From Nocardiopsis sp. YSL2 (lineage in GTDB: Bacteria; Actinomycetota; Actinomycetes; Streptosporangiales; Streptosporangiaceae): 64,000 nucleotides of DNA. The stretch is from assembly GCF_030555055.1 (NCBI RefSeq), contig NZ_JAMOAO010000001.1:5456001-5520000 (forward strand), read 5' to 3'. Below, one piece after another: positions 34,743 through 51,778 of the stretch. The position numbers were made by a program, and so were the translations under genes. The notes beneath the pieces are model-generated. The model ran no database searches and was not told the DNA's origin. It saw nothing but the letters and a program-made list of their open reading frames with translations. The stretch's first letter is position 1; each line of letters starts with the position of its first letter.

Positions 34743-34847
34743 CGCCTCAGCGGTGAGTGAAATCCCCTGGATCTGCCCTCATCCGCGCAGATAGGGTCCT
34801 GCGGACACGGCCCCTGACCCGCCGGCCGGGGGCTCCCCAGGCCCACA

Positions 34848-47358: not shown

Positions 47359-47580
47359 TCAGCGGGCGAAGCGCTTGAGAGTGTCGGTGTCCAAGACGAT
47401 CCCGACACCAGGGACCCGTACGGCCTCGCCGTAGGGGTGCTCTGACCGGTCCAGGTATCGACCTGCCACCGGTCGGGAGTGGACTACGACGGCGTTGGCG
47501 TCGCGGTCCACCAGCAGGTAGACGCCGATACCGGTTGCCGCGTACGCGGCGGGTTCCTCGACACGGTCCGCGGAGTTATC
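47359..47580 (-). pseudogene. Uma2-family (DUF820) nuclease-like gene, C-terminal remnant
   Basis: About 73 residues from NSADRVEEPAAYAATGIGVY through LLVDRDANAVVVHSRP to VGIVLDTDTLKRFAR match the C-terminal half of Uma2 proteins, PD-(D/E)XK-fold restriction-endonuclease-like proteins common in actinomycetes. The N-terminal 110 or so residues, with the catalytic acidic residues, are missing. The match begins at about 47580, where the erm stop codon (47578-47576) lies, so the gene was cut by whatever event joined it to erm. The frame continues upstream to a GTG at 47628 inside erm, but that part is unrelated. I infer it is dead. Confidence 0.65.
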
Positions 47581-48403
47581 GGCTTCGCAGGACTTCCTCG
47601 ACCGAGTTCGTTCCCTCGTCGAGCACACCGAACACCGTCAGCCACTGGTCCGGGGAGACCGTCCCCACGGGTGCGTCCGGCGGGACTCCGGCCGCGCGCA
47701 GCGCCGCCGCCACCCGGCGGGCCGGGTGTGCCCGGCGCAGCGACGCGCCCAGCGACCCGCCCACCCCGCCGAACCCCAGCTCCACCAGGTGCCGGTAGGC
47801 CGCTCGGCGCTCGGCCGCCACCAGGGGCCGCGCGCGTCGGTCCAATACGAGGATCCCGGCGTCCACGCGGGGCACCGGCCGGAACCGGTCGCGGTCGATC
47901 CGGCCCGCCAGCGACCACGACCACTCCGGCCACGTCAGCACCGTCAACCGGCTCCAGCGCCCGCAGGCGCCGGTGCGCTTGCGCGCGTACTCCAGCTGCG
48001 TGACCAGCGTGGCCCGGGTCAGGTCCCGTGCCGCAAGGCACCACCGCACGATGTCGGCGGTGCGGGCGTAGGGGATGTTGCCCACCACGGCGAAGGGGCC
48101 GCGGGGCGGGCGGGAGCGGGTGAAGTCGGCGCGCACCACCCGCAGCGGCCGGCCGCGGTAGCGCGCGGCCAGGCGGTCGGCCAGGCGGGGGTCGAGCTCG
48201 TAGGCGGTCACCCGGCCGGCCGCGGGGACGAGGAAGCGGGTGATCGCGCCCTCGCCGGGACCGATCTCGACCACCAGGTCGTCGGGTCCGATCCCGGACA
48301 GGCGCACCACGCGCCGGGCGGCACCGGGATCGGCGAGGAAGTTCTGGGACAGGCGGCGCCGGGTGTCTCCGGCGGAGGTGCGTCGCGGGCGTGCGGTACG
48401 TGC
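47576..48403 (-). CDS. erm: Erm-family 23S rRNA (adenine-N6)-dimethyltransferase
   Basis: 275 residues. KsgA/Dim1 fold with RRLSQNFLADPGAARRVVRL, SAM site VEIGPGEGAITRFL, YELDPRLADRLAARY, the NIPY motif in VVGNIPYARTADIVRWCL, and LVTQLEYARKRTGACGRWSR then RFRPVPRVDAGILVLDRR. The QLEYARKRTG block separates Erm from the housekeeping KsgA. It should dimethylate A2058 and give macrolide-lincosamide-streptogramin B resistance. I chose GTG 48403 because GGAACGGA stands before it; GTG 48478 would add 25 residues without a ribosome site. Upstream are a GC-rich structured leader and a 32-codon leader peptide, so expression is probably induced by translation or transcription attenuation. Confidence 0.9.
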   Translation of the reverse strand, partial: ARTARPRRTSAGDTRRRLSQNFLADPGAARRVVRLSGIGPDDLVVEIGPGEGAITRFLVPAAGRVTAYELDPRLADRLAARYRGRPLRVVRADFTRSRPPRGPFAVVGNIPYARTADIVRWCLAARDLTRATLVTQLEYARKRTGACGRWSRLTVLTWPEWSWSLAGRIDRDRFRPVPRVDAGILVLDRRARPLVAAERRAAYRHLVELGFGGVGGSLGASLRRAHPARRVAAALRAAGVPPDAPVGTVSPDQWLTVFGVLDEGTNSVEEVLRSR

Positions 48404-48665
48404 CACGGTGCGGTCCGTTCCAGCCACGGGGTGGCCGACAAGGACGGGCGCCGAGTTCGGGCGCGGCACTGTGCGCACGCCGGGGAAGGTCCGGGCGGCC
48501 CGTCCTGGAGGAAAGTGGACAGGCGGGACCTGGACCGGAGCGGGGAGGGTGCGCGCGCCACCGCGCCCGAACGCGCACGAGTGGCGCGGGCGGGCGGCGT
48601 GGGGCGCGGGCGGCCTCGACGCCTCCGGGCGCGAACGCGCGCCGAACAGAGGCCTCGGGCGCCGG
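48404..48665 (-). promoter_or_regulatory. Structured erm leader (attenuator candidate)
   Basis: Between the leader-peptide stop and erm lie several competing GC-rich repeats, including CGCGCCAC / GTGGCGCG (near 48551 and 48580) and GGGCGCG / CGCGCGCC near 48627. This layout resembles erm attenuators, where a stalled ribosome on the leader peptide changes the RNA fold. Pairings were judged by eye only. Confidence 0.45.
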
Positions 48666-48764
48666 CTACCGGTCCAGGGAAGCGGACCGGGGCCGGACGA
48701 CGAGTTCAGGGGCGCTCAGGGACCAGGTCAGGGCCCGGTCCTCTATCGCGCAGAAGCAGCACAT
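48666..48764 (-). CDS. Erm leader peptide, 32 codons
   Basis: A short reading frame from ATG 48764 to TAG 48666, upstream of and in the same direction as erm. The peptide starts MCCFCAIEDRALTWSLSAPE and ends RSASLDR. It is too short for usual gene callers. It has its own sigma-70-like promoter with TACGGT seven bases before the ATG, so translation would begin on a leaderless mRNA. The three Cys residues near the start and the codon run after them could sense ribosome-bound drug, but that is inference. Known erm leader peptides are 8-38 residues long, so the size fits. Sequence similarity to known leaders was not seen. Confidence 0.6.
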   Translation of the reverse strand: MCCFCAIEDRALTWSLSAPELVVRPRSASLDR

Positions 48765-48771
48765 GCGCCCC

Positions 48772-48812
48772 ACCGTAGGAGGGTCCCCCACGGCCGGGCA
48801 ACGGGTTTTCCC
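48772..48812 (-). promoter_or_regulatory. WhiB7-like promoter of the erm leader
   Basis: On the minus strand: GGGAAAAC (48812-48805), three bases, TTGCCC (48801-48796), an 18-base spacer, TACGGT (48777-48772), seven bases, ATG. An AT-rich hexamer just upstream of -35 is the signature of WhiB7/WblC-activated promoters, which drive erm genes in mycobacteria and streptomycetes. Confidence 0.55.
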
Positions 48813-48828
48813 TGCGGGGTGGGCGGTC

Positions 48829-48869
48829 GGGAAAACGACTCGCCCCGGCGGGCGTGACCACGCCATACT
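48829..48869 (+). promoter_or_regulatory. WhiB7-like promoter of the divergent methyltransferase
   Basis: GGGAAAAC (48829-48836), three bases, TCGCCC (48840-48845), an 18-base spacer, CATACT (48864-48869), seven bases, ATG 48877. Every spacing equals that of the opposite erm-leader promoter, and the AT elements are exact inverted copies. Confidence 0.5.
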
Positions 48870-48876
48870 CGCGACC

Positions 48877-49578
48877 ATGCCGAACTTCGCGGACTTCGAC
48901 ACCCGCCACTACCGCACGGTCGACGTGGCCACCGGCTACGACGGCTGGTCGAGCACCTACGAGGACTCCGTCCTGGACGCCATGGACCTCGCCCTGCTGG
49001 AGGGCCTCGCCCACCCCGACTGGGCCGCCGTCCGGCGCGCCGCCGACCTGGGATGCGGCACCGGGCGCACGGGCGCCTGGCTGCGCGGACGGGGCGTGGC
49101 GCGCGTGGACGGCGTCGACCTCAGCGCCGGAATGCTCAAGCTGGCCGACGCGCGCGGCGCCCACGACAGCCTCACCCAGGGGGACGTGCGCGCGAGCGGT
49201 CTGTCCGAGGGCGCCTACGACCTGGTGATCGCCTCACTGATCGACGAGCACCTGCCCGACCTGGCCCCGCTCTACGCCGAGGCCCGGCGCCTGGCCGCGC
49301 CGGGCGGGACCTTCGCCCTGGTCGCCTACCACCCGCAGTTCATGATGGTGTCGGGCATGCCCACGCACTTCACCGACGACGCGGGGGAGGACGTGGCCAT
49401 CACCACCCACGTGCACCTGCTCAGCGACCACGTGCGCGCGGCTCTGGCCGCCGGGTGGCGGCTGGCCGAGCTGTCGGAGGCCACCGTGGACGACGACTGG
49501 GTCGCGGCCAAGCCGAAGTGGGAACGGTTCCGCGGCCACCCCATCTCCGCCGCCCTGGTGTGGGACCTCCCGGCCTGA
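48877..49578 (+). CDS. Class I SAM-dependent methyltransferase
   Basis: 233 residues, Methyltransf_25/11 type. SAM-binding glycine loop RAADLGCGTGRTGAWLRG, VDGVDLSAGMLKLADARG, then AYDLVIASLIDEHLPDL and APGGTFALVAYHPQFMMVSG. The substrate is unknown; similar small enzymes act on O or N of metabolites. Its promoter mirrors that of the erm leader, so it may be part of the same antibiotic response, possibly a drug- or rRNA-modifying enzyme. ATG 48877 is leaderless, seven bases after CATACT. It is convergent with the APH-type kinase gene 42 bases away. Confidence 0.85.
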   Translation: MPNFADFDTRHYRTVDVATGYDGWSSTYEDSVLDAMDLALLEGLAHPDWAAVRRAADLGCGTGRTGAWLRGRGVARVDGVDLSAGMLKLADARGAHDSLTQGDVRASGLSEGAYDLVIASLIDEHLPDLAPLYAEARRLAAPGGTFALVAYHPQFMMVSGMPTHFTDDAGEDVAITTHVHLLSDHVRAALAAGWRLAELSEATVDDDWVAAKPKWERFRGHPISAALVWDLPA

Positions 49579-49620: not shown

Positions 49621-50400
49621 TCACGGCGCGGTCAGGGCCGCCAGCCACACGTCGCGGTAGCGCTCCACGTAGTCGGCGGCCGGACCCCAGTGCTCCGCGT
49701 GACCCTGCGCGTGCAGCCGGGCCCACGGCTGGACGCCCGTGCGCGCCCCCTCCCGCAGGGTGTGGAACATCCCCCGCACCCGGTACAGGACCGCGTCGGG
49801 CAGTTCCCGCCGCTGGGCGCCGTCGCAGCCGTACCCGTCGGCCAGCGCGCGCAGGCGACGGGCGTCGGCCCGCGGGTCGCCGCCGGGGTGCAGGGGAACG
49901 AAGCCGTGCGCGGCGTAGCCCAGGTCCTCCATCCGCGAGCCCGGGGCGGCGCCGTCCCAGTCCACGAAGACCCAGCGGTCGCCGTCGCGGACCAGGTTCC
50001 ACGGCGCGAGGTCGTGGTGGCACACGACCTCCTCGCGCAGCGGCCGCAGCCATGCCTCCCACACGGCGTCCCGCGGCGGCCGGTAGTCGGCGGTCAGGTC
50101 GTGCAGGCGCCGGATCGTCCCCCCGACCCGGCCCAGCTCGGCCGCGCTCAGTGGTGCCATCCGATCGGCCATCGTCCCGGGCACGTACTCCAGCACCTGT
50201 CGGCCGCGGTCGTCGCGGCCCAGCCCGGCCGGAGCGCCCTCGTAGCCGCGGCGCTCCAGATAGCGCAGCAGGTCCAGGACCGACGGTGAGGAGCGGAGCC
50301 AGGGCTTGCGCACCGTCGCGCCCGCTCGCACGACCTCCGCGGCCACGTTGCCGCCCGTCATCGGTGTCTCGTCCGGCCCGGAGGGCCACAGGTCCGCCAT
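49621..50400 (-). CDS. APH-family phosphotransferase (aminoglycoside/choline kinase fold)
   Basis: 259 residues. The kinase core is present: Brenner motif VCHHDLAPWNLVRDG (catalytic Asp and Asn) and metal-binding VFVDWDGAAPGSRMEDLGYA. The N-terminal lobe is short, with VLEYVPGTMADRM acting as hinge. It phosphorylates a hydroxyl of an unknown small molecule; aminoglycosides, macrolides or host metabolites are all possible. ATG 50400 was chosen by similarity to family starts; no clear ribosome site. Its neighbours (erm, methyltransferase, MFS exporter) fit a resistance role but do not prove it. Confidence 0.83.
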   Translation of the reverse strand: MADLWPSGPDETPMTGGNVAAEVVRAGATVRKPWLRSSPSVLDLLRYLERRGYEGAPAGLGRDDRGRQVLEYVPGTMADRMAPLSAAELGRVGGTIRRLHDLTADYRPPRDAVWEAWLRPLREEVVCHHDLAPWNLVRDGDRWVFVDWDGAAPGSRMEDLGYAAHGFVPLHPGGDPRADARRLRALADGYGCDGAQRRELPDAVLYRVRGMFHTLREGARTGVQPWARLHAQGHAEHWGPAADYVERYRDVWLAALTAP

Positions 50401-50515: not shown

Positions 50516-51778
50516 CTATCCGGCGTGGTGTCGCGCCCCGTCCGAGTCCAGGGCCGCGCGGTCGATCCGCGCCATCGGCACGAGCAGCGTCAGCACGAGC
50601 AGCGCCATCACCGCGAACACAGCCCGCACGCCCAGGAACTCGGCCAGGAGCCCGCCCGCGGCCGCACCCAGCGGCATGGTGCCCCAGGCCAGCAGCCGGT
50701 AGGCGCTGTTGACCCGGCCGAGCAGGGCATCGGGGGTGGTCCGCTGGCGCAGCGACACCGTGATGACGTTCCACACCGCGATCCCGACCCCGCCGACCAG
50801 GAAACAGGCCGCCACCCCGTACGGGTTCGTGCTCAGCGCCGGCGCGCCGACCAGCAGGGCGAAGGTCAGGACGGTCACCCACAGCGACCGCCCCCGGCCC
50901 AGGAACCGTTCGATCCGTTCGGCGCCCAGCGCTCCGAGCAGGCTGCCCGCGGCGGTCGCGGTCAGCAGCACCCCGTACCCGGGCTCGGTCAGGCCCAGGG
51001 CCGACTCCGGGCCGACCGCGTACAGCACCAGCACGGCGAACGCCGCGTTGGTCGCGAAGTTGGACACGCCCACCATGACCGCGAGCGCCCGCAGCAGGCG
51101 GTGCCTCCACAGGAACCGCAGGCCCTCGGCGATGTCGGACCGCAGGGGCGCGGGCGCCCCCCGCGCGACCCGGTAGCGGCCGCCGACGGTCAGCAGCGCC
51201 CCCAGCGCCGCCAGCCACAGCCCGGCCGGAGTGGCGAAGGCGGTGACCAGACCCAGCGCCGCCAGCAGACCGCCCAGCGGCGGGCCGACGAACTGCTGCG
51301 CGGTCAGCTCCGCGGCGTGCAGGCGGCCGTTGGCGGCCGAGAGCCGGCCGCGCGGCACCACCTGCGGCAGGATCGACTGCGCGGAGGTGTCGTAGACGGT
51401 CTCGGCCACACCCACGCACAGCGCCACGGCGTACAGCGCCCAGATCGACGCCGTGCCCGAGGCCAGGACCAGTGCGAGGGCGGTGAGGGCGAGGGCGCGA
51501 ACGAGGTTGGCGCCGAGCATCGCCGTGCGCCGGTCGACCCGGTCGGCCAGGGCTCCGGCGGGCAGCGCGCACACCAGCCAGGGGAGGGTGAGCGCGAAGG
51601 TCACGCCCGCCACCAGGGGTGGGGAGTCGGTCAGCCGCAGCGCGGCCAGGGGCAGGGCGACCTTGAGCACGCCGTCGGCCAGGTTGGACAGCACGGAGGA
51701 ACCCCACAGCCGCCAGAAGCGGCCGCCCAGGGCCGCGGAGGGGGAGGGGGCGTCGGTGGGGCGGGAGGATTCGTCCAT
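50516..51778 (-). CDS. MFS transporter (MFS_3/EntS-like exporter)
   Basis: 420 residues with about 12 membrane helices. FWRLWGSSVLSNLADGVLKV is the usual MFS_3 start; motif A follows as GALADRVDRRTAMLGANLVR, and the second half has RQRTTPDALLGRVNSAYRLL and PLGAAAGGLLAEFLGVRAVF. Such proteins export drugs or siderophores. The ATG 51778 lies 16 bases from a perfect 10-bp-arm palindrome that also serves the divergent ArsR-type regulator, so the exporter is probably repressed by it. Confidence 0.9.
   Translation of the reverse strand: MDESSRPTDAPSPSAALGGRFWRLWGSSVLSNLADGVLKVALPLAALRLTDSPPLVAGVTFALTLPWLVCALPAGALADRVDRRTAMLGANLVRALALTALALVLASGTASIWALYAVALCVGVAETVYDTSAQSILPQVVPRGRLSAANGRLHAAELTAQQFVGPPLGGLLAALGLVTAFATPAGLWLAALGALLTVGGRYRVARGAPAPLRSDIAEGLRFLWRHRLLRALAVMVGVSNFATNAAFAVLVLYAVGPESALGLTEPGYGVLLTATAAGSLLGALGAERIERFLGRGRSLWVTVLTFALLVGAPALSTNPYGVAACFLVGGVGIAVWNVITVSLRQRTTPDALLGRVNSAYRLLAWGTMPLGAAAGGLLAEFLGVRAVFAVMALLVLTLLVPMARIDRAALDSDGARHHAG

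Follow-up and report, generated by a model that had tools for sequence, protein, structure and literature searches.

We found that an erm gene and a divergently oriented gene for a class I SAM-dependent methyltransferase (MT) in Nocardiopsis sp. YSL2 are very probably served by two independent promoters, arranged back to back, that are activated by WblC (WhiB7) and read by the principal sigma factor. WblC control of erm is already known, and MT looks like an unreported member of the regulon. In the window (the whole 64,000-nucleotide stretch of DNA that was analysed), the erm-leader promoter lies on the minus strand and consists of a WblC AT element (GAAAAC; 48805..48810), 3 bp (CCG), a -35 box (TTGCCC; 48796..48801), an 18-bp spacer and a -10 box (TACGGT; 48772..48777), which is 7 bp from the ATG (48764..48762) of a leader upstream open reading frame (uORF). 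The MT promoter, on the plus strand, has its AT element (GAAAAC) at 48831..48836, followed after 3 bp (GAC) by the -35 box TCGCCC (48840..48845; TGGC, TTGC or TCGC in relatives) and, after an 18-bp spacer, by the -10 box CATACT (48864..48869; C/G/A-ATACT in relatives), again 7 bp from the ATG at 48877. Since only 7 bp separate -10 and ATG on both sides, the erm-leader and MT transcripts are predicted to be leaderless. Read directly, the bases agree exactly with the elements and equal spacings that the original prediction gave for both strands, and its claim that the AT elements are exact inverted copies (GTTTTCCC at 48805-48812 and GGGAAAAC at 48829-48836, separated by 16 bp) is correct.

Both promoters were scored against the WblC consensus of Streptomyces coelicolor, which was derived from ChIP- and RNA-seq and comprises GAAAWY, 3 bp, TKGMNN, 16-19 bp and TANNNT, with transcription starting 7-8 bp downstream of the -10 (PMC7157823). 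The erm-leader site scores 13/13 and the MT site 11/13, and a best score of at least 10 is reached in about 3% of dinucleotide-shuffled upstream regions. The AT element matches at 6/6 bases in both cases and both spacers are of 18 bp, with the -35 and -10 boxes agreeing at 7/7 informative bases on the erm side versus 5/7 on the MT side. As the latter departs from the consensus in the -35 (TCG versus TKG) and the -10 (CATACT versus TANNNT), MT may be activated more weakly than erm. Across the whole 6.42-Mb genome, the 17-base pattern GGGAAAACNNNTYGCCC has two matches, which are exactly these two promoters, the exact consensus has four (none for the reversed control) and a looser form has ten (again none for the reversed control). 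Summed over 37 Nocardiopsis genomes, the exact consensus has 215 matches versus 7 for its reverse. The pair resembles the WblC/WhiB7 regulon promoters of S. coelicolor and mycobacteria in its AT element placed 3 bp before the -35, its 17-18 bp spacer and its predicted start 7-8 bp past the -10, and differs from them in being a divergent pair in Nocardiopsis.

Minor grooves of AT-rich DNA are also read by Lsr2-like proteins, and the AT elements are short, so that these blocks could be chance matches or sites of another AT-preferring protein (e.g., Lsr2). We regard this as exceedingly improbable and largely refuted: the AT element stands at a fixed 3 bp from the -35, the distance from -10 to ATG is likewise fixed, the motif is rare in the genome with an empty reversed control, and the elements are kept in other genera.

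The presumed activator is itself encoded in the genome. There are 12 WhiB-family matches, and the WblC gene lies at G000:C1:1481499-1481642 and codes for a C-terminal AT hook, RGRP. Among eight WhiB-family loci inspected, that of this gene, L010, has GVWGG followed by RGRP, a combination that is the hallmark of WhiB7 (PMC10727445). The promoter of wblC itself, ahead of a uORF, reads AAAAAT AGG TTGCTG, 18 bases and TAGTGT, which is the geometry seen at erm and MT. The ten loose-form matches precede wblC, genes for an RsgA GTPase, an ABC exporter, an MFS pump, an RNHCP protein, a glyoxalase-fold protein and an amidase, erm, a frameshifted methyltransferase-like gene and one site without an evident gene. 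WblC-activated genes of S. coelicolor include wblC and the RsgA/EngC GTPase gene (SCO6149) (PMC7157823). The predicted WblC promoters of the genes for the RsgA GTPase, ABC exporter, MFS pump, RNHCP protein and glyoxalase-fold protein are at G000:C1:1752485, 1914857, 1964233, 3697480 and 5414699, respectively. At another locus (L197), a WblC-consensus promoter (G000:C1:4048328-4048365) has its -10 exactly 7 nt from the ATG of an ORF for a second, unrelated methyltransferase-like protein (MTEDWLRLNRENWDDRA...), the frame of which appears to shift after about 90 codons, either by a real frameshift or by a sequencing error. Within the window, a further exact WblC consensus (GAAATCCCCTGGAT...TAGGGT; 34759-34797, plus strand) stands upstream of an ORF judged by eye to be S9-type-peptidase-like. 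The fit to the consensus, its rarity across the genome, the conservation described below and the presence of a wblC whose own promoter has this geometry together support the original prediction of WhiB7-like divergent promoters.

On the minus strand, the erm-leader promoter is followed by a predicted leaderless uORF of 32 codons (MCCFCAIEDRALTWSLSAPELVVRPRSASLDR; 48666..48764), a long leader RNA (48404..48665) and erm, a 23S rRNA A2058 methyltransferase gene of the ErmE/H/O/R/S/V group (PF00398), the longest ORF of which spans 47576..48478. Alignment of the starts points to an internal GTG, that of VARTARPRRT near 48403, as the probable conserved start of erm. Like known members of that group, the Nocardiopsis protein passes NF000337 (338 bits, cut-off 320), and it also scores 257 bits against NF000499 (cut-off 212). 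Unlike them, it is preceded by a Nocardiopsis-conserved, predicted leaderless uORF behind the WblC promoter, with the pattern MxxFx[AG][IV], and by a structured leader of about 260 nt. The erm-side WblC site and the uORF are present at 24/24 erm leaders of relatives, one of which precedes a broken erm; in the N. listeri MAG (L092), the break in erm comes some 50 codons in, and the WblC promoter and leader peptide are intact. Leader positions F4 and [AG]6-[IV]7 are invariant in 23 aligned leaders, and the leader of L084 has C at position 4. The 3′ end of the uORF forms a hairpin (CCGGTCC..GGACCGG) common to relatives, the 3′ arm of which is also complementary to a conserved distal segment (CCGGTCCAGG) of the leader RNA, a putative attenuator, with compensatory changes in some species. 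These complementary segments, which could form mutually exclusive helices involving the uORF, stay at conserved places, and some of the base exchanges are compensatory (CTGG/CCAG to TCGG/CCGG), but the pairing exceeds chance or shuffles only modestly in such GC-rich RNA. No Rfam family matches the leader even at E 1. Because we found no overall purifying selection on the leader codons (dN/dS about 1), sensing by the leader peptide would rest on its few invariant positions and the RNA complementarity. The erm leader looks like a translation-coupled attenuator of the kind found in classical erm genes.

MT is present in 40/40 Nocardiopsis genomes (Nocardiopsis being a soil bacterium), and a close-match erm (>60% identity) is found in 30/40, always on the contig of MT and divergent from it. 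We also compared 70 orthologous MT loci, taken from Nocardiopsis, Streptomonospora, Nocardia, Streptomyces, Saccharopolyspora, Amycolatopsis, Actinomadura, Pseudonocardia and others. The MT promoter geometry recurs at 60/70 of these loci, which are related sequences and not independent draws, versus 0.26% of 20,859 ATG/GTG positions drawn at random from these loci. An AT tetranucleotide occurs in the 12-nt interval at -50 in 62/70 loci and in at most 2/70 in any interval further upstream, and some of the ten loci outside the 60 carry variants (e.g., the mixed A/T tracts of L093, L105 and L138). The promoter recurs at MT orthologs from additional Nocardia-type genomes and was not found upstream of distant homologs in Mycobacteriaceae. 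As it is kept in true orthologs across genera and absent from the distant homologs, the predicted WblC promoter does not depend on erm and belongs to the MT gene family. Conservation of the AT elements between related genomes, which the original prediction had named beforehand as one of the points on which it could fail, is what we found, both at all 24 erm leaders and at most MT orthologs of several genera.

The neighborhood of MT is less constant. Only in the Nocardiopsis group does erm adjoin MT. Outside Nocardiopsis and Streptomonospora, we rejected erm or another resistance gene as a conserved partner, as there is no adjacent erm and the neighbors vary by genus. In some Streptomyces and Saccharopolyspora (L107/L109 and L128/L130), a FAD_binding_3 monooxygenase gene is found just upstream of MT on the same strand, and these two pairs of monooxygenases have no mutual match at E 1e-10. 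In the window, the opposite strand beyond MT codes for an APH-type phosphotransferase (49621-50400, minus strand) and an MFS_3 transporter (50516-51778, minus strand), at neither of which did the WblC pattern searches give a match.

The original prediction had stressed the symmetry of the two promoters. The exact inverted copies and equal spacings stand for this locus, but the symmetry is not conserved in relatives. There, the AT elements come within a few bases of each other in L083 and are separated by roughly 180-340 bp in L071 and L084, while in L093, L105 and L138 the two divergent -35 boxes flank a single AT tract, which seems to serve both promoters. In these shared-tract species, simultaneous binding of WblC in both directions seems sterically unlikely. 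One could read the perfect inverted GTTTTCCC...GGGAAAAC copies of this locus and the one-tract arrangement of the three relatives as signs that the inverted pair is a single unit, a palindrome at which two WblC molecules fire both promoters together. This is very improbable, given that the spacing is not conserved and that MT keeps its own element without erm, and we rejected the mirror symmetry as a functional palindrome because of this variation among relatives. On this comparison, each promoter is conserved separately and the symmetry is an incidental by-product of two strong motif copies, because the spacing of the AT elements ranges from a shared tract to more than 300 bp.

The MT protein (METHYLTRANSFERASE; 233 amino acids; 48877..49578, plus strand) is assigned only a generic class I fold by Pfam (PF08241) and NCBIfam. 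Its AlphaFold2 model (pLDDT 94.6) is nearest to the solved folds of putative methyltransferases (3bkw and 3g5l) and of the small-molecule enzymes ToxA, MitM, CcbJ and NovO. It shares the fold and the SAM motif of 3bkw, 3g5l, METTL27 (7qcb) and ToxA, with about 20% identity, a level at which substrate cannot be transferred. Its pI is 4.9 (family median 5.4) versus 11.7 for Erm. Because MT is acidic and its fold is like that of small-molecule class I enzymes, methylation of a small molecule is likelier than that of rRNA, and the substrate is most likely an antibiotic or a stress metabolite. That MT might instead act under WblC control as a 23S/16S rRNA or ribosomal-protein methyltransferase, shielding the ribosome as Erm does, is suggested by its adjoining erm in Nocardiopsis and by the abundance of translation-related genes in the WblC regulon (PMC7157823). 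We consider this unlikely in light of the difference in pI from Erm, the lack of an RNA-binding domain among its Pfam or NCBIfam matches, nearest folds that are generic class I and include the above small-molecule enzymes, and the absence of an erm neighbor outside the Nocardiopsis group, where the neighboring genes are unrelated.

The claim that MT belongs to the same antibiotic response as erm is well supported by the comparative evidence, namely the conserved element and a WblC with the same promoter geometry. As the promoter is kept even in genera without an adjacent erm, MT is likely a member of the antibiotic-stress response, and we infer that it may itself be a resistance enzyme. Specifically, we tentatively posit that MT founds a WblC-induced leaderless family, spread over several actinomycete genera, whose members would methylate a translation inhibitor itself and thereby inactivate it, a possibility we hold to be more doubtful than not; if true, this would be distinct from the target methylation by Erm. 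It is quite conceivable, if somewhat short of probable, that MT is an ordinary metabolic enzyme induced by WblC for metabolic adjustment and confers no resistance: genes of amino-acid and redox metabolism are also WblC-induced (PMC7157823), and MT, unlike erm, is universal in Nocardiopsis. Yet its patchy distribution elsewhere (6/114 sampled genera of the class) and variable neighborhoods are more like those of an accessory defense gene.

With the binding of WblC, induction by drugs, the start sites, attenuation and the MT substrate all inferred, we propose that stress from ribosome-targeting antibiotics triggers the system. WblC bound to the sigma factor would insert its AT hook into the minor groove of GAAAAC, which lies 3 bp before each of the weak -35 boxes, and so activate transcription. 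Leftward, this would yield a leaderless mRNA that begins with the erm leader peptide and continues through the structured leader RNA into erm, the leader probably placing a second control on Erm via ribosome stalling. Rightward, it would yield a leaderless mRNA for the class I methyltransferase, most likely directed at a small-molecule substrate.

Among known targets of WblC/WhiB7 are erm genes such as SCO6089 (lrm) (PMC7157823) and erm41 (MAB_2297) (PMC10727445); the MT family is not named as a conserved target in the main texts of the papers searched. In M. abscessus, WhiB7 directly targets the 'aconitate methyltransferase' MAB_2845 (21.8-fold) (PMC10727445). This other annotated methyltransferase offers a parallel to MT and not evidence of orthology. 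In a sample of 301 genomes from the Nocardia family, we found no close MT ortholog outside Nocardia and one other genus, and the distant homologs are without the promoter. We therefore rejected MAB_2845 as an MT ortholog, and judge from this absence of orthologs that it probably belongs to a different family.

The intrinsic antibiotic tolerance of actinomycetes is set by WblC/WhiB7, many of whose target genes are without a known role. Two WblC promoters can sit so close that one AT tract appears to serve both in some species, and such a shared tract offers a natural experiment on the choice of direction by WblC. With a precise WblC promoter in Nocardiopsis, Nocardia, Streptomyces and others, whether or not erm is present, MT is a candidate for a new intrinsic-resistance function.
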